The notes beneath the pieces are model-generated. The model saw nothing but the letters and a program-made list of their open reading frames with translations. It was not told the DNA's origin and did not search any database. This document shows, one piece after another, positions 4,759 through 13,799 of a DNA stretch of 50,872 nt. Positions within the stretch are counted from its first letter, which is position 1. Each line of letters begins with the position of its first letter. Source of the DNA: a virus; IMG/VR virus record IMGVR_UViG_3300005327_000005, positions 1 through 50,872 of that record. One strand, given 5' to 3'. The position numbers and the translations under genes were made by a program.

Positions 4759-5292
4759 TCAGATGCTGTACCGGTCGAGCAGCGCGGAATGCAGCGTCGA
4801 CATGTTGGACACCGATGCGGCGTCGGGGTTGCGGCTGGACCCCCAGGTTTTGGTGACCTGCCCGACGGTGGCGGAGGTGAGTCCTTCCGGGTTGGACATC
4901 TGCTTGCCGGTGAGGTCCATGGTGATCAGCTTCAGGACTTCCGGCATCGGGTCGTAGCCGTGGACGGCGTCGATCTCGTACTGGCAGGTGTAGATCCAGC
5001 AGCCCCAGATCTGGCCCTTGCGGGAGAAGTTGATGGGGAAGTCCAGCGGGTCGAGAGCCACCCCGCCGGACCGCACTTCCAGGACGTCGACAAGTTCCAG
5101 CGTCGGCAGTGTCACCAGGGCGCTTTTCGCGCCCTCTACGTACATGGTCTGCGTCTGGCGGGTGAGGTCCCACCCGCAGTAGGTGCGCACCGCCGACGAC
5201 GCCAGATCCAGGAGCGCCTGCGCCTGGGCCGGGTCGTCGAAGGTGCGCCCCAGGTAGACCTCAAGCTCGCCGACGGTGGCGAGCGACTCCAT
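4759..5292 (-). CDS. Head-tail adaptor (HK97 gp6-like connector)
   Basis: 177 residues, MESLATVGELEVYLGRTFDD, followed by helical ALLDLASSAVRTYCGW and the strand VTLPTLELVDVLEVRSGG. This pattern of ATVGELxxYLG plus a helical AxxxIRxYCGW is typical of gp6-like head-tail connector proteins, which form a ring under the portal. The ATG overlaps the stop of the upstream gene (ATGA). Confidence 0.85.
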   Translation of the reverse strand: MESLATVGELEVYLGRTFDDPAQAQALLDLASSAVRTYCGWDLTRQTQTMYVEGAKSALVTLPTLELVDVLEVRSGGVALDPLDFPINFSRKGQIWGCWIYTCQYEIDAVHGYDPMPEVLKLITMDLTGKQMSNPEGLTSATVGQVTKTWGSSRNPDAASVSNMSTLHSALLDRYSI

Positions 5293-5852
5293 CAGCTACC
5301 GCCGGCCCGCTTGTTCCGTGCGCCCCGGGCCTTGCCGGTTGCGGTCTTGCCGTCGGGGTCCTCTTCGGAGGTGACTCCGGCGTCATCGGCTTCGCGGCTG
5401 CGGGTCGACAGCCGGTTGGCCTCGTTGTTGCCTTCCTTACCGCTGGCGGGCTCTTCGAGGTCTTCGTCGACGGGTACCGCCCCGACCTGTTCGGCCATCT
5501 CCGGGGTCATCATGGCGGTGATCTCCACGTGTCCGACGTAGTAGTGGTACTCCTGAAGCTCCTTGGGTTCCTGCGCCCATTCCTGCATTCGCCCGGCGAC
5601 CTCGCCTACCTTGCGCTGCGCGGTCTCGTGCTGCTCCTGGCGGCCCTGCTGGTGCTCTTCGTGCTTGGCCCGGTTGCGCTCCTGCTGCTCGCGGCGCTTG
5701 GCCTGGCCTGTCTGCTCCTGCTGCTGTTCCTGCTCGTCGGTCATGGTGGTTCGTTCTCCTCTGAATGCGGCGCTGGTGAGCAACGGGAGGCTCTGGTGGC
5801 TGTCACCACAGGCCGCTCCGGGTGCTCCACAGATTCGGCAGTAGACGTTCAC
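5292..5852 (-). CDS. Hypothetical protein: zinc-binding N-terminus, Gln/Glu coiled coil
   Basis: 186 residues if started at 5852, where the ATG overlaps the stop of the upstream gene (ATGA). Residues 5-15 hold a zinc-type cluster (YCRICGAPGAACG). Residues 37-95 are Glu/Gln/Arg-rich and probably coiled coil, and the C-terminus is disordered and basic (KTATGKARGARNKRAGG). An internal ATG at 5744 has its own GAGGAG and could give a shorter 150-aa form without the zinc motif, so two products are possible. No function recognised; position suggests a head or connector accessory. Confidence 0.7.
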   Translation of the reverse strand: MNVYCRICGAPGAACGDSHQSLPLLTSAAFRGERTTMTDEQEQQQEQTGQAKRREQQERNRAKHEEHQQGRQEQHETAQRKVGEVAGRMQEWAQEPKELQEYHYYVGHVEITAMMTPEMAEQVGAVPVDEDLEEPASGKEGNNEANRLSTRSREADDAGVTSEEDPDGKTATGKARGARNKRAGGS

Positions 5853-6064
5853 TTCGAAAGGCTCGCCCGTACGAAACAGTCCTTCGCTTCGAGGAGCTTG
5901 CGCAGCCCGGCGGTGACCTCCGGGCCCGGCGGGACCCGTTCGGCCATCGCTCGGGCGAAGTCACCGAACGGGGCGGACGTCTCCCGCATGGCGCTTCCGG
6001 CGGGCAGATGGTCGTAGCTGAAATACCGAAGGAGAGCTTCGGTGGCGGGATGCAGATCGGTCAT
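5849..6064 (-). CDS. Acb2/Tad1-type cyclic-nucleotide sponge (anti-CBASS) candidate
   Basis: 71 residues. The N-terminal helix TEALLRYFSYDHLP, the middle APFGDFARAMAERVP, and the C-terminal helix GPEVTAGLRKLLEAKDCFVR match the short helical-hairpin family that includes T4 Vs.4 and phage Acb2, where YxHLP and GPExxxxLRKLLEAKDxxVRA are the conserved blocks. In studied phages Acb2 multimers sequester CBASS signal nucleotides and so block host abortive defence. The family assignment is from memory of motifs; activity is inference. It sits between the capsid and connector genes and is coupled to both by 4-bp overlaps, so it would be made late and at high level. Confidence 0.68.
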   Translation of the reverse strand: MTDLHPATEALLRYFSYDHLPAGSAMRETSAPFGDFARAMAERVPPGPEVTAGLRKLLEAKDCFVRASLSK

Positions 6065-7353
6065 GGGAGGGTGATCTTGACGAATGCCGAGGGCCGGAGG
6101 ATGGCGAAGGCGGCGCGCATCTCAGCCAGGATCGCCACCAAGTTGCGGACGAAGAAGTCGGCGTGCGAGTCGGTGGCGGTGACGGTGGCCTGCTCCCGGT
6201 CGTAGATGACGCCCCAGTTCCAGGCGGCACACCAGGCGGTCTTCGGCGCCACAGCCTCGCTCTGCACCACTGGCAGGCCCCACAGGCGGGGGGCGGTGAG
6301 CTGGAACGGTCCGCCGCCGTAGAAGTCGCCGTTGACGTTGCGCATCAACTCGATTTCCTGCCAGTCGAGGGGGTTCATCACATAGGCCGTCGGGGTTGCC
6401 CGGCCGCCGATCTGGACCTTTGTGCGGGCCTTGCGGGCAACGTCCATGGCGTCTTCGGCGCCGGCAGCGGTCTGGGTCTGGATTCCCGGGGTGTTGTTGA
6501 GGCCGAGGAAGTTTTCGCCGGTGCCGGATCCGGTGAGGAGTTGGTCTTCGAACTCCTCCTCCAGGCCGTAGCGCAGGAACGAGTCGATCATGGTGCGGAT
6601 CTGCGCCACATCGGCCAGTGCCCGCTTGGTGATCGGCATCCAGTGCGCGATGGTCTTGACAGTCGTCGAGTCGCGCTGGAAGTCGAAGCCGCTCTCGGGC
6701 TTGACGCCGCCGGTGACGGTGGTGGCGCCGCCGCCGATGGGTGCGGTGGTGGTGGCCTCAGGAACCACAGCGGCGTTGTTGACGGTGTTGATCATCCGGA
6801 CGTAGTCGATGGTGTCCGAAGTGGTCGAGCCGGACGCGAACAGTCCTCGCACACTCAGCGGGCGCTCGTAGAACGGGGACAGCAGCCCGCGGTTGTCCGT
6901 CTCAATGGTGATGCCGCCGGAGGTGGTGTGGTTCCCGGACGTCAGCAGGGTCTTCATCGAGCCGATGTGCATGGGCGACGACTGGACCCGGTACTTCTCG
7001 CCGAAGGAACCATTGGGCACCGAGCCGAGAAGCGTCTTGTACTCCGCCGACTGGGTGAACATCTCACCGGCTGACATGCCCTTGGTGGAGCCCTTACCGG
7101 CGGCCTTCGGAGGGGGGATCTCCTGGGTGTCCTGCTCCCCCAGCCCCAGCCCGCCGGACAGGTCGCTCATCTGCTTGCGGAAGGCCTCCTCCCGGGCGGC
7201 GTTGCCGGTGAGTTCCTCCGCCTTCTTCATGTGCGCGTCGATCTTCTCCCGCTCGACGTCGGTGAGGTCGCGCTCTTCCTTCGTGACGACGTCCAGGATC
7301 CCCTTGGCAGCGTTCGTTTCCGCCAGGATCGCGTCTCGGATACTCTTACGCAT
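6061..7353 (-). CDS. Major capsid protein, HK97 fold
   Basis: 430 residues. Residues 1-80 form a charged, helical delta-type scaffold (DVVTKEERDLTDVEREKIDA) that is normally removed by the prohead protease. The rest has HK97-fold signatures: SGGITIETDNRGLLSPFYERP, the VPEATTTAPIGGG loop, FQRDSTTVKTIAHWMPITKRAL, and the P-domain/E-loop segment NPLDWQEIELMRN ending LRPSAFVKITLP. It follows the protease gene and precedes the Acb2-like gene with overlap. The start at 7353 has an AAGGACT-type ribosome-binding site. Confidence 0.95.
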   Translation of the reverse strand: MRKSIRDAILAETNAAKGILDVVTKEERDLTDVEREKIDAHMKKAEELTGNAAREEAFRKQMSDLSGGLGLGEQDTQEIPPPKAAGKGSTKGMSAGEMFTQSAEYKTLLGSVPNGSFGEKYRVQSSPMHIGSMKTLLTSGNHTTSGGITIETDNRGLLSPFYERPLSVRGLFASGSTTSDTIDYVRMINTVNNAAVVPEATTTAPIGGGATTVTGGVKPESGFDFQRDSTTVKTIAHWMPITKRALADVAQIRTMIDSFLRYGLEEEFEDQLLTGSGTGENFLGLNNTPGIQTQTAAGAEDAMDVARKARTKVQIGGRATPTAYVMNPLDWQEIELMRNVNGDFYGGGPFQLTAPRLWGLPVVQSEAVAPKTAWCAAWNWGVIYDREQATVTATDSHADFFVRNLVAILAEMRAAFAILRPSAFVKITLP

Positions 7354-7383: not shown

Positions 7384-8010
7384 TCAGTCGCTGAGTTCGG
7401 CCGCAAGCGCAGCCATTCGGGCTCGCTGACGGCACAAAAAAACCGCCCCGGAAGGGCGGTAGGGGTCCGGCGTCGGATCCGGAGGTGGATGCTTCTTCGC
7501 GCTGATCAGTTCCGTCAGCGGGTTCATACCGAGCGGGGTGGGGCCTACTTCGTGCAGGAACAGATCGAGCAGCTCGTTCGCGTCGTTGTCCTTGCTGCGC
7601 TGCTCGTTGATGACGTCGTAGGTGAAACTGAACTGCTTGACCCGGCGTTGCTTCATCAGGTGCCGGACCTGCTTGCCCATCCCGAAGTCGTCGAGCTGGG
7701 CCTTGATGTACAGCCCGCCGTTCTCCTGCACCCACGCATTGGCCCAGGAGGGAATCGACTTGGCCCCACCGATCAGTTCCTCGGCGTCGATGACTTCGCC
7801 GATGTTCATGGTGGGGTCGTCGAGGCGGTGCGACCAGTAGACGGGGATGGGGGCGTCAGCGCCCGCCCAATGCTCCAGGCTCGACTTGAACGCACCCGGG
7901 CGGACGATGTCACCACCCAGGTCCTTGTTGTTGAACACCGAGACGACGGCTTCGAAAACCCCGTCGTCGGATTGCGGCGTCACCGTCGCCGGCATCGTCT
8001 TGTGCTTCAT
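7384..8010 (-). CDS. HK97-family prohead protease
   Basis: 208 residues. The catalytic triad expected for the U35 family is visible: His61 in PVYWSHRLDDP, Ser128 in RRVKQFSFTYDV and Glu154 in LFLHEVGPTPLG. Such enzymes cleave the capsid scaffold during maturation. The ATG overlaps the portal stop. The last ~35 residues (after ELISAKK) are an unusual Pro/Arg-rich tail encoded across a terminator-like hairpin (7436-7460), so this tail may be poorly conserved or the gene was extended. Confidence 0.9.
   Translation of the reverse strand: MKHKTMPATVTPQSDDGVFEAVVSVFNNKDLGGDIVRPGAFKSSLEHWAGADAPIPVYWSHRLDDPTMNIGEVIDAEELIGGAKSIPSWANAWVQENGGLYIKAQLDDFGMGKQVRHLMKQRRVKQFSFTYDVINEQRSKDNDANELLDLFLHEVGPTPLGMNPLTELISAKKHPPPDPTPDPYRPSGAVFLCRQRARMAALAAELSD
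7436..7460 (-). terminator. Intrinsic terminator inside the 3' end of the protease gene
   Basis: On the minus strand ACCGCCC-TTCCG-GGGCGGT is followed by seven T residues (7442-7436). It lies ~50 bp before the protease stop and ~85 bp before the capsid start. It probably acts as an attenuator between the packaging genes and the capsid gene. Confidence 0.7.
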
Positions 8011-9305
8011 GAGCCGCTCCGAAGGGGCTTAGGTCCCGGTGGTTGGCCGTTGGACTCCTCGTTGGATGGGTTATCGGGTGCGGTGTCCCGCGGTGATGCC
8101 AGCCCGCCTTCGACGACGTTGAGCGGGGTGATGAGTTCGTCCGCCTCGGGAAGGTCCGACAGGTTGTACAGGGCGCGGCCTTCGTTGCGGGTCATCCACG
8201 GGCCGCCGACGGAGGCCGAGATCGCTGCGGCCTGGGCTTCGAAGGAGCCCTGCATCTTGGCGCGCAGGTTGAACTCGACGTAGATCTTCTCGGCGCCGCC
8301 CGGGTCCACATCGGGCAGGAGCTGCAGTTCGATGTCCTGTTGCAGCATCTCCAGCAGCGGCCCGAGAGCGTCCGCATACAGCATCTGGCGCAGTTCACCC
8401 AAGCTGGACTGGGTGGCGTTCTTACTGAGCCCGATCATGGACGGGTCGACGTGGTACGCGGAGGCTACTTCTTCGCGGGAGAGCTGCCTTGCCTCGATGT
8501 ACTGGGCGTCTTTGGGTGTGATGCCACCCTCGTGCCAGGACATTCCATCCTCGAGAATTGGCGTCCCGCCGGCTTGTTGGGCGGTCGAGTAGGCACCCCA
8601 GTCGGTCTTGAACCGGTTCCGGGCCGTATCGGACCAGCGGGGCGCCTTCTCCGGCCGAGTGATGTAGCCCGAGATTCTGGCCCCGTTGCGCCACATCTGC
8701 GCCCGGTACTCGGTGGCTGCGTACTCCTCGGCGAGGATGAGCCGCAGCGTCTCGATCGGCGACCACCCTTCGCGGGGGTCGTCGGGGTTGTACCCGAAGA
8801 AGTGCACCACCTGATCGGGGGCGATGTCCTTGGTGCCTTTGGTGCCGGTGATCCGGTAGAAGTCGGGGTAGAACAGGTTGTCGCCGACGGGTTCGATGTA
8901 GCGGCGGGGCATCGGTAGGACCCCGTTGGTGCCATCGGGTGCCTTCCCTTTGATCCAGAACGCCGAGTTGAAGATCGAATACTCTTGCACCGTCCAGTTG
9001 ATCAGCCGGTACTTCGTCCACTTCGATCCGGGCCAGGGATTGTTCAGCAGCTTCGACAGCGGGTGTTCGCGGACCTTCTTACGGTCGGTGTCGCTGGTGC
9101 GTTCGAAGACGTCCAGGCCGAGTTGGGCGATGTTACGGGCAACGAACTCGATGACTGTCCGCAGCGCCGGTTGGGTCTTCCACATGTGTTCGTAGGTGCG
9201 GTACTGCTCCGGACCCACCTGCACATAGGTCGGCAGCCCATAGCCGAGGGTGTACTGCGCGGGACGGACCCGATCGATGACGCCTGCGGTCAACGCGAAA
9301 GGCAC
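8007..9305 (-). CDS. Phage portal protein, HK97 family
   Basis: 432 residues of the HK97-type portal family. Recognisable blocks in order: TQPALRTVIEFVARNIAQL near residue 45, HPLSKLLNNPWPG, the tunnel-helix region IETLRLILAEEYAATEYRAQMWRNGARISG, and the C-terminal EVASAYHVDPSMIGLSKNATQSSLGELRQML typical of these portals. Twelve copies form the DNA entry channel, the terminase docking site and the head-tail adaptor platform. It precedes the protease and capsid genes in standard order. The ATG at 9305 has an AAAGGAG ribosome-binding site. Confidence 0.95.
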   Translation of the reverse strand: MPFALTAGVIDRVRPAQYTLGYGLPTYVQVGPEQYRTYEHMWKTQPALRTVIEFVARNIAQLGLDVFERTSDTDRKKVREHPLSKLLNNPWPGSKWTKYRLINWTVQEYSIFNSAFWIKGKAPDGTNGVLPMPRRYIEPVGDNLFYPDFYRITGTKGTKDIAPDQVVHFFGYNPDDPREGWSPIETLRLILAEEYAATEYRAQMWRNGARISGYITRPEKAPRWSDTARNRFKTDWGAYSTAQQAGGTPILEDGMSWHEGGITPKDAQYIEARQLSREEVASAYHVDPSMIGLSKNATQSSLGELRQMLYADALGPLLEMLQQDIELQLLPDVDPGGAEKIYVEFNLRAKMQGSFEAQAAAISASVGGPWMTRNEGRALYNLSDLPEADELITPLNVVEGGLASPRDTAPDNPSNEESNGQPPGPKPLRSGS

Positions 9306-10938: not shown

Positions 10939-11256
10939 ATGATCAACGACGTCTACGTGCGGACCGCGCTGATCCTGGGGCGATTCCGCGACATGGACCC
11001 CGGCGACGCCATCGCCACTGTCGCCACCGCCGACGGTGGCACCGCCCGGCTCACCTACTTCGATCTGCAAGAGCTGCTGTCGCGGGCGCTCGACGCCAGC
11101 GACCGGTTGGGCCGGATCGCCACCTGGCACGGCCGCGAGACGGGACCGGGGGGCATGGTCGGCGACTATTGCGTGGAGTGCGGAACGCGCTGGCCATGCG
11201 ATACCCGCGAGATGGCTGACGGGACCTACGTGGACGACGAGGTCAGATCACCATGA
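10939..11256 (+). CDS. Small protein with CxxCxxxWPC motif (105 aa)
   Basis: ATG at 10939 (MINDVYVRTALILGRF). The C-terminal part has DYCVECGTRWPCDTREM, a CxxCGxxWPC motif common in small actinobacterial and actinophage proteins and probably metal-binding. Its 3' end overlaps the 3' end of the convergent large terminase gene by 14 bp. Last gene of the plus-strand cassette. Confidence 0.75.
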   Translation: MINDVYVRTALILGRFRDMDPGDAIATVATADGGTARLTYFDLQELLSRALDASDRLGRIATWHGRETGPGGMVGDYCVECGTRWPCDTREMADGTYVDDEVRSP

Positions 11257-12934
11257 GCTTGTTGTCCTCATAGGCCGACTGGTATTGATCGACGCCTTCG
11301 CGGGACTTCCACGCGTTCACTGCCATCGCCGCCGCCGGCACCGCGTCGATGCGGGCCTTGTCCCGGCCCCGCTCCGGCTTCTCCGGGCGGATCAGGTTGG
11401 GATCATAGGGGGCATGGCGTACTTCGCACTGGTCGAAACAGAAGCGGGCCACCGGGTTGCCGTGATGACGGAGGAGGTCTCTCTTCACGGTTCCCATCAG
11501 GTCTGTCATCCCTGGGCTCATGCGGTCGTACGTATTGCGGTACGCGGTGAGTTCTCCCTGCTCGATGTCCAGGTTGAGGGCGTCGCCGATGCGGTTGATG
11601 ATCGGCCACATGCTCCATTCGTCGCAGTCCGCCGCGACGATTCGGAACGTCTTCGCGTCCTCTGTGATGTCGTCGATGACCTTGTCGTAGTCGATCACCG
11701 AGCCAGAAGTCACAGTGAGCCAGCCCTGTCGCGCCCAGCGGGTGAACTTGCCGTCGTGGAACTGGTCGAGGCGTTGCAGGCCGGACTCGGGAAGCCAGAA
11801 CCGCCAGAGGATGTGTGCCGGGTCCTCTTTCGGCTCATCTCCTGGGATGACGACCGCCCATGCCGTCAGGTCGAACTTCGCCGCCAGGTCGAACCCGGCG
11901 TAGGCGGTGCGGCCGGCGAGTTCGTTGTTGTGCCAGTCGGGCCGTAGCCACAGGTCGCCGGTGCAGCGGTCCCACAGGTGCATCGGCATCCACCGCGACG
12001 CCTGGCTGACCCACTGGTTGAGCCGGAACTGCCGGAAGGCGTTCTCCTTGCCGGGGTCGTTCTTCGCCTCCTGGGCTTCTTCCCGCAGTGACGACAGGCT
12101 GAGGAACTGACCGAGTGCCGGGTTCGCCATTCCCCACAGGGACTCATCCCAGGGGTCGGCGTCCTTCGGCAGGTTGCGCATGTAGACGAAGATGTGCCGG
12201 GCCCGTTCCGGGTCGTCGGCGACCTTCTGCATTTCGTCGTGCTGGTCCTTGCCGAAGGACTGCGGGTCGTCGCCGGCGGTGGTGGCAGCCACCATGAGGG
12301 CCTGTTCCCGGGCGCCCATGCCGGTTCTCATGGCGTTCCACAGGTCGGGGCTCTTCTGGGTCAACACCTCATCGAAGACAATGCCGTGGGGGTTGTGGCC
12401 CAGGTTTCCCCCGGCGTCGGCAGCAACCACTTCGTAGTAGGAGCCGGTGCTGGTGTCGTAAATCCGCTTCGCCTGCTTGTTGATCTTCAGCCGGGCTGTC
12501 AGCAGCGGCGAGAGCTGCACCATCCGCTCGGCGACGTCGTACACCTTGCGGGCCTGGTCCCGGTCCACCGCACAGCCGTAGATCTCCGCGCCGTCCTCAT
12601 CGTCGGCGATGAGCAGGTACAGGGCGATCCCGGCGAGCAGCTCCGACTTGCCGTTCTTACGGGCGACCTCAATCCACGCCAGCCGGTACCGGCGTACGTA
12701 CCTCTCGAACTCCTTCGACCACGTCACCTCAGCGAACAAAGGCGCCATGATGTCGTTGACCTGCCAGTCGAGGAGCCGGAACGGCTGACGACTCCAGCGG
12801 CCCTTGGTATGGACCAGGATCTCCGAGAAAAACGCCTGAACATGATTTGATCTCGGCTTGCACAGGTGGTCGCCCTTTTCCTTGCATTCGGTGCCGTCGA
12901 AGGATTTGCCGCAGACGGGAATGCGTTTCGCCAT
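11243..12934 (-). CDS. terL: Terminase large subunit
   Basis: 563 residues from ATG 12934, which has CGGGGGTG six bases upstream; a GTG at 12943 is an alternative. ATPase: Walker A ARKNGKS at residues 91-97 and Walker B GIVFDEV at ~184-190. Nuclease domain: GFDLAAKFDLTAW with the first Asp, ADCDEWS in the middle and the late Asp in RDKARIDAVPAAAM. It is of the HK97/Terminase_1 type, which drives DNA into the prohead and cuts it. The N-terminus carries an unusual Cys cluster (C8, C17, C25) that may bind zinc. The small terminase gene is upstream, separated by a plus-strand HTH gene. Confidence 0.95.
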   Translation of the reverse strand: MAKRIPVCGKSFDGTECKEKGDHLCKPRSNHVQAFFSEILVHTKGRWSRQPFRLLDWQVNDIMAPLFAEVTWSKEFERYVRRYRLAWIEVARKNGKSELLAGIALYLLIADDEDGAEIYGCAVDRDQARKVYDVAERMVQLSPLLTARLKINKQAKRIYDTSTGSYYEVVAADAGGNLGHNPHGIVFDEVLTQKSPDLWNAMRTGMGAREQALMVAATTAGDDPQSFGKDQHDEMQKVADDPERARHIFVYMRNLPKDADPWDESLWGMANPALGQFLSLSSLREEAQEAKNDPGKENAFRQFRLNQWVSQASRWMPMHLWDRCTGDLWLRPDWHNNELAGRTAYAGFDLAAKFDLTAWAVVIPGDEPKEDPAHILWRFWLPESGLQRLDQFHDGKFTRWARQGWLTVTSGSVIDYDKVIDDITEDAKTFRIVAADCDEWSMWPIINRIGDALNLDIEQGELTAYRNTYDRMSPGMTDLMGTVKRDLLRHHGNPVARFCFDQCEVRHAPYDPNLIRPEKPERGRDKARIDAVPAAAMAVNAWKSREGVDQYQSAYEDNKLMVI

Positions 12935-13062
12935 TGAGTTCACCCCCGCACCGGAAAGAATGGAGCCCTAACGGGTGACAGGTTGAACTCCTACGTCACT
13001 CGGATGCCATTACCCGAGTTCCCTAGACGATGAGATCAAGGACGAAGGTGACGGGCGAGCCG

Positions 13063-13335
13063 ATGGACCTGACCGAGAAACTCACACCATTCATCGATGC
13101 CATGCGGAATCAGCGCAGAGACCTGGCGATGAGCCTCTCAGCGGTGTCCCGAGCTGCCGGCGCCCACCGCACCTGGGCGTCCACCCTGGAAAACGGTGAA
13201 GGCTGCGCCAACCCGGCGCTGAGCAAACTCGCCGACTGGGCCCAAGCCGTCGAAGCCCAAGAGTTCGGCATCTACGTCGTCATCGACGGGCACCACACCT
13301 CAGTGCCCATCTTCGGCGACGACGACGAGGACTAG
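13063..13335 (+). CDS. Helix-turn-helix regulator embedded between terminase genes
   Basis: 90 residues from ATG 13063 (MDLTEKLTPFIDAMRNQRRD); an ATG at 13030 in the same frame would add 11 residues. An XRE-type HTH is visible: MSLSAVSRAAGAHRTWASTLENGEGCANPALSKLADW, where the recognition helix and the LEXGE turn fit the fold. It is on the opposite strand to the two terminase genes around it and overlaps the small terminase 3' end by 4 bp. It may control late transcription, but this is inference. Confidence 0.75.
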   Translation: MDLTEKLTPFIDAMRNQRRDLAMSLSAVSRAAGAHRTWASTLENGEGCANPALSKLADWAQAVEAQEFGIYVVIDGHHTSVPIFGDDDED

Positions 13336-13799
13336 CCGGACAGCAACCGGGAAGCGTCAGCACCCGTCTGCTTCGGCTTCTGCTGATCGGAGACCTTGAT
13401 GGCGGTACGCGCTGCCGGGCTGAGCCCGAAGTCCCGGCCGAACATCTTCACAATGGCCGCCGCTTCCTTCATCACAATCGTCCCCGGGTGCTTGATCTGG
13501 CGGCCCTCCACCCCGATGATCGCGCCCTGCTTGCGGACCAGATCAGCAGCCTTGCGGTAGATGACAACCTGCTCGCAGTAGGTGTGCAGGGCGTCCCGGT
13601 CGGCCATGGTGATGGTGCGCATCTTGACGAGCTGGTCCACCGTGTAGTCCCAGATGGCCCGCACCTCAGGGTCCTTCGTCGGGCACTGCGGGATCCCGTC
13701 CTCGGGCTGCGGCTCGTCGGAGTTGACCCGGCAGCTCCGCTCACCCTTGAGGAGCTTCAGAGCCGTCGGGGTGCCGGTACCTCTCGGGCGTCCAGCCAT
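13332..13799 (-). CDS. terS: Terminase small subunit (P27-like)
   Basis: 155 residues beginning MAGRPRGTGTPTALKLLKGE, the standard opening of P27-family small terminases. The body is helical (ALHTYCEQVVIYRKAADLVR, AAAIVKMFGRDFGLSPAARTAI), matching the DNA-recognition and oligomerisation helices. It binds the packaging site and recruits the large subunit. AAGGAG lies eight bases before the ATG. Confidence 0.9.
   Translation of the reverse strand: MAGRPRGTGTPTALKLLKGERSCRVNSDEPQPEDGIPQCPTKDPEVRAIWDYTVDQLVKMRTITMADRDALHTYCEQVVIYRKAADLVRKQGAIIGVEGRQIKHPGTIVMKEAAAIVKMFGRDFGLSPAARTAIKVSDQQKPKQTGADASRLLSG

Follow-up and report, generated by a model that had tools for sequence, protein, structure and literature searches.

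Known sponges work by stoichiometry, and timing and amount therefore decide whether they win. One of them, Acb2, is a hexamer whose pockets accept cyclic di- and trinucleotides. Acb2 and Tad1 bind several cyclic nucleotides and Tad1 also binds gcADPR, according to the available text of a review that further describes an N-terminal beta domain in Tad1 (PMC12043709). Tad2 and Acb4 are likewise small phage sponges, the latter presented in the accessible part of its source as an alpha-beta protein (PMC11722364). DarA and Hdf of phage P1, as one report has it, serve anti-defence, are linked to the morphogenesis of the head and are carried within it (PMC12810830). In two papers, genes of phages from Mycobacterium cluster E and of Microbacterium EG phages are given the name Acb2 (PMC11953737, PMC13348362). 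A literature search of partial coverage, which took in few subscription papers, found nothing on the family described below, its capsid fusion or capsid-coupled sponges.

The window analysed here is one whole IMG/VR virus record (IMGVR_UViG_3300005327_000005; 50,872 nucleotides), and its head operon contains a 71-aa gene, X, which on sequence evidence we assign to the Acb2/Tad1 hairpin superfamily as a diverged sister lineage, below the threshold of every curated Acb2/Tad1 model. X is like the small canonical proteins of Pfam family PF24729 in length, helix order, hairpin homology and an F-x-Y-H start, but its last helix reads RKLLEAKDCFVR where theirs reads TKLEEAVMWANASIAR, and one aligned site is Arg/Lys in those proteins and Ser in X. 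With Tad1, X would have in common the C-terminal hairpin superfamily (the Pfam name of PF24729), but the N-terminal beta domain is absent from X, which at 71 aa is all helical in its AlphaFold2 (AF2) model. Acb2 (T4 Vs.4, PDB 7uq2; PaMx33 p26, PDB 8h2x) is matched by X in the predicted three-helix layout and in the aromatic residue at T4 Y8, but the two are linked only through an intermediate set, F2, and in T4 the gene has small vs genes around it rather than head genes. Tad2 and Acb4 have folds unlike that of X; X has no Pfam match to PF11195 or PF13876 (Tad2/Acb4), and a window-wide search with PF11195 was empty. DarA and Hdf, likened to X by description only, are a precedent for head-borne anti-defence, but concern restriction, unlike the role proposed for X. 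X is ordinary as a gene and uncommon in its capsid coupling.

The head operon and the X gene

The head genes of the window run on the minus strand in the order terminase small subunit, terminase large subunit, portal, prohead protease, major capsid protein (MCP), X, a Q/E/K-rich protein and head-tail adaptor:

13332..13799, minus strand: terminase small subunit (phrog_83, 2.5e-27)
11243..12943, minus strand: terminase large subunit (phrog_9, 1.1e-138)
8007..9305, minus strand: portal protein (PF04860, 1.1e-68)
7384..8010, minus strand: prohead protease (PF04586, 4.6e-13)
6061..7353, minus strand: major capsid protein, HK97-type, upstream of X (PF05065, 6.8e-36; phrog_10, 1.8e-53; TIGR01554, 1e-28)
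5849..6064, minus strand: X, 71 aa, ATG at 6064 and TGA at 5849 (PHROG 5120; putative diverged branch of the Acb2/Tad1 hairpin)
5292..5852, minus strand: next gene after X, GTG start, Q/E/K-rich, function unknown (no convincing family)
4759..5292, minus strand: head-tail adaptor, second gene downstream of X (phrog_442, 1.4e-28)

The initial annotation had described a 71-aa product with two sequence blocks and 4-bp overlaps on both sides, and all of this is borne out: YDHLP occupies residues 17-21 and GPEVTAGLRKLLEAKDCFVRA residues 47-67, and exactly 4 bp are shared on each side, ATGA where X meets the capsid gene (6061-7353) and GTGA where it meets the downstream gene (5292-5852). The strand, on which that annotation was silent, is the minus strand. 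No Shine-Dalgarno sequence was seen in the 30 nt upstream of the X ATG, which together with the overlap fits translation of X coupled to that of the MCP; such coupling is the reading we adopt from the sequence, as a probable one. The order MCP, X, next gene is kept in all six of the closest loci (L001-L006), which amount to about three lineages because the X proteins of L001-L004 are identical. X is 78-79% identical to its relatives in these loci and the MCP is similar (69-77%, and 90% for a part). The match of the next gene begins at the X stop codon in the relatives as well (e.g. L001 3559).

Codon differences between X and close relatives are more often synonymous than nonsynonymous (29 v 14, 22 v 15 and 22 v 15, over 67 codons), and with hundreds of relatives this bias makes the 71-aa ORF a genuine gene rather than a chance one. 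The contrary reading, in which there is no gene here or the motifs arose by chance, could point to the shortness of the ORF and to the start codon's lack of a visible Shine-Dalgarno sequence, but is already refuted by the same two observations and has a negligible probability.

Relatives and conservation

X has full-length matches to PHROG 5120 (1e-24) and PHROG 1761 (1.2e-23), both of unknown function, the second having about 70 extra N-terminal positions relative to X. There was no match to Pfam or NCBIfam at E<=1 or to PADLOC at E<=10. Relatives were found by tblastn (E<=0.01) in 345 of 50,697 phage records, the hosts being chiefly Vibrio, Mycobacterium, Erwinia, Acinetobacter, Brevibacterium and Gordonia, and are also encoded in 510 of 521 pattern-matched IMG/VR stretches (80 kept) and in 83 of 112 genome stretches from several phyla (80 kept).

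Among 134 aligned relatives E59 is invariant and R55, K56, L57, L58, K61, D62, V65 and R66 are retained in 131-133, counts that are biased upward for the last helix because the search patterns contained LEAKDCFV or LLEAKDCF. The ten relatives from annotated phages that this alignment also includes were found by tblastn and mostly have an RKLLEAKD-like helix with some changes. The two blocks had initially been read as motifs of known sponges; they belong instead to the separate, uncharacterised PHROG 5120/1761 family, and the consensus of small canonical PF24729 proteins (FTYHAPK...SREKSLAxTKLEEAVMWANASIARN) differs from them.

Remote kinship with the PF24729 hairpin

The curated PF24729 cut-off is not reached, X itself giving no match at E<=1; sub-cutoff matches were obtained for one of 45 relatives (0.066) and for six of ten chosen relatives (0.041-0.21). 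A profile, F2, was made from 12 canonical small hairpin proteins, and all eight of those scanned (seven small proteins from phages or genomes, and L233) scored above the PF24729 cut-off at 1.7e-11 to 1.8e-27, a set that includes L205 and phage proteins and excludes T4 Vs.4. Since the PF24729 matches in actinomycete (396) and Bacillota (299) genomes all fell short of the cut-off, canonical relatives were drawn from proteobacterial genomes, phages and IMG/VR.

Searched against 24,652 frames of at least 40 codons from 160 loci, F2 placed X relatives at all of ranks 1-45 (best, L171 at 5.6e-7). At E<=0.01 it retrieved 24 X-family members, the first other ORF standing at 0.073, and at E<=1 it retrieved 103 members against one other ORF. 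X itself scored 10.0 bits, aligned over residues 34-60. Local hhalign of the X family with F2 gave 91.0% and a score of 36.6, gapless over columns 25-60, against 25.5 for the best of 200 column shuffles, 10.6 for the reversed profile and 15.1 for the best of eight natural decoy families. Enlarged sets gave 84.8% and a score of 36.9 over 49 columns (best of 100 shuffles, 17.8); with the -glob option, the match of the X family with F2 reached only 50.1%. F2 in turn matched a set holding T4 Vs.4 at 95.9-97.3%. Direct hhalign of the X family with a narrow T4 Vs.4-type set gave no match, and BLASTP found no alignment between X and a canonical hairpin protein. The supported homology ends at about residue 60, and nothing in the canonical set corresponds to the most conserved part of X (61-66).

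These comparisons suggest a real but remote homology of the X hairpin with PF24729 proteins. Of the Acb2/Tad1 assignment in the initial annotation, kinship at the superfamily level is thus upheld by the F2 search and hhalign, and membership of a curated family is not, with Pfam, NCBIfam and PADLOC all giving no match; the profile check proposed there divides the same way, PF24729 failing at E<=1 and F2 recovering the X family.

Predicted structure and key residues

An AF2 model of X from 45 sequences (pLDDT 94.8) has helices at residues 6-13, 25-43 and 48-69, that is, a predicted short N-terminal helix followed by two long antiparallel helices, as in Acb2. A canonical hairpin control modelled alike (pLDDT 92.5; helices 2-6, 16-37 and 42-64) has the same helix order. 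For the control, ranks 1-7 of a Foldseek search of the PDB went to T4 Vs.4, Tad1 and Acb2 (E 0.084 to 1.1), but for X no Acb2 or Tad1 was among the best 50 of 128 matches, nor among the best 50 of VIA-align 2; the matches listed for X by the two methods are generic helical bundles (Z up to 7.1). Because the control recovers Acb2 and Tad1, their absence for X speaks against a close structural match, so the X monomer, as modelled, appears to depart from Acb2 more than the helix order implies. Searching solved structures by sequence with X gave nothing of note, and the corresponding profile search gave the phage protein "Gp22" (8jaj) at 0.0057.

Residues of X were mapped to T4 Vs.4 through the hhalign alignment of the X family with F2 and then that of F2 with the T4 Vs.4 set. 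S30, a serine in 120 of 134 relatives, aligns with T4 K23, the Acb2 lysine; the basic residue T4 K23 / p26 K26, which we take to have a role in ligand binding, is invariant in the Acb2 alignment and is not found in X. Y17 aligns with T4 Y8 and is Y, F or W in 115 of 133 relatives, and mutation of T4 Y8 disrupts cyclic-dinucleotide binding, according to the available text of the source (PMC12657218). R66 meets T4 R79 by ungapped extension only.

Position in other phages

Gene context was surveyed in 50 viral records from the 80 IMG/VR loci, 21 of which have a phrog_10 capsid gene. X is on the capsid gene's strand in 20 of the 21, at a distance of 0-35 kb, and within 4 kb of the MCP gene in only five, which rules out the head operon as the rule for the family. 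The late-strand bias is broad and direct capsid-gene adjacency is lineage-specific; the head-operon arrangement initially described thus holds for the window and L001-L006, but across the family the late strand is favoured and the places are varied. The order is MCP, hypothetical gene, X, adaptor in Gordonia phage Pimento and MCP, hypothetical gene, X in Vibrio phage 1.237, and X is upstream of the major head protein gene in Acinetobacter phage B1251. X stands ahead of the lysis genes in Puppers and among lysins in Camerico; phiV141 has it beside an RNA polymerase gene, and AlanGrant has it in a group of accessory genes.

Fusions of the X domain

A Rhodococcus prophage lineage has X fused in frame to a prohead protease-capsid polyprotein, whose N-terminal portion it forms; six such proteins are complete (L168, L246-L250). 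The fusion of Rhodococcoides fascians (L168:7992-9866) matches PF04586 at 1.3e-8 and PF25209 at 2.3e-8, and those of the IMG/VR contigs L246-L250 (4001 to about 5880; 618-626 aa) are above the cut-off for both families in all five. The polyprotein start codons lie just ahead of the X domain, several with an upstream purine-rich stretch, and the same protein occurs, interrupted by a contig end, in L167 and L251.

Other partners were found as well. A single protein, one ORF at L296:3890-4969, joins X, WDGH and a Tad2-like domain (PF11195, 7.3e-24); X is fused to a crAss001_48-related domain at two loci (L190:2080-2487 and L277:4010-4501) and to Multi_ubiq (PF14452, 6e-7) on a single contig (L059:5001-5438, again as L276). 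In Vibrio phage 1.205 (L344:1261-2252) a YRGW-X gene comes next after a crAss001_48-Tad2-like gene and lies two genes ahead of the MCP gene; the pair may form a sponge cassette. YRGW is our own domain label; this part of the Vibrio 1.205 protein and its counterpart in L201, a protein with a PF24729 match of 27.9 bits, share 57% identity over 63 residues, and both kinds of hairpin, X and PF24729, thus occur behind the same YRGW partner. OlisA2 and LysYB1 were considered as hairpin-WDGH fusions and ruled out, both being WDGH alone.

Proposed function

X is most likely, at a probability of roughly 0.5, a late-made, stoichiometric sponge for a nucleotide immune signal. X would self-assemble and hold the signal between protomers by means of two elements, an aromatic block near the N-terminus (F-x-Y-x-H-L-P) and the charged final helix (RKLLEAKDCFVR). 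Through its probable translational coupling to the capsid gene it would be made late and in quantity, and would be present when phage assembly would trigger signalling defences; oligomer, ligand, timing and anti-defence effect are all what we infer for it. The F2 ranking, the hhalign scores above controls, the link from F2 to T4 Vs.4 and the helix order of the model argue for a sponge, as do the X-WDGH-Tad2-like fusion, the YRGW-X gene beside a crAss001_48-Tad2-like gene and the YRGW partner common to a PF24729 protein. Against it stand the missing PF24729 cut-off match and direct T4 Vs.4 link, the Foldseek matches listed for X with no Acb2 among them, Ser in place of the Acb2 lysine, a homology that ends near residue 60 and the occurrence of the Tad2 fusion in a single protein.

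The head association could just as well point to a role in the virion or in assembly. X would then be a small factor for assembly or for the inside of the head, with its hairpin fold retained and its signal binding lost, and its place among head genes would reflect its job. Its position between MCP and adaptor genes in the window and L001-L006, its proximity to the MCP gene in Pimento, Vibrio 1.237 and B1251, the six complete protease-capsid fusions and the near-invariant last helix are consistent with this, but the domain is found in phages of differing build and in differing places (phiV141, AlanGrant, Camerico, Puppers), is sporadic at 345 of 50,697 records, and is fused to Tad2-like, crAss001_48 and Multi_ubiq domains as well; we regard such a role as rather unlikely, while giving it real weight. 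The loss of the aligned lysine, the new near-invariant RKLLEAKDCFVR block, the structural divergence from Acb2 in Foldseek and the one Multi_ubiq fusion would also suit a hairpin-superfamily protein with another ligand or partner, such as a housekeeping nucleotide, a host protein or a ubiquitin-like conjugation route. We consider this unlikely; Tad2-like domains as fusion partner and neighbour, and the YRGW partner common to a PF24729 protein, speak against it.

If X is a sponge, some phages may produce an anti-immunity factor together with their shells. It is a speculative and quite improbable extension that some phages build a nucleotide-signal sponge into the shell programme, the Rhodococcus polyprotein being the fused form and the coupled gene of the window the unfused one. 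The Rhodococcus fusion would then supply one sponge copy per capsid subunit, which would enter the prohead and be freed by the protease. Once free, the domain would have one of two fates: to flood the cell at a late stage, or to travel inside the head and pass with the DNA into the cell infected next. Should the sponge reading be true, some phages make their counter-defence at capsid scale and time, and hundreds of phage genes of "unknown function" gain a testable role. The fusion partners Tad2-like, crAss001_48, WDGH, YRGW and Multi_ubiq hint at further candidate domains.

Annotation of family members

The X genes of some Acinetobacter phages are annotated as 'occludin homology domain protein', and the Pfam matches of single relatives to Occludin_ELL and DUF641 are below the cut-off and were dismissed as noise. 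One Acinetobacter protein (L172:8001-8378) consists of the X domain and a 70-aa C-terminal tail of no known family. Canonical hairpin genes are called 'phosphomannomutase' in several Paenibacillus and Brevibacillus phages (e.g. KT361655, NC_028805), probably a misannotation.
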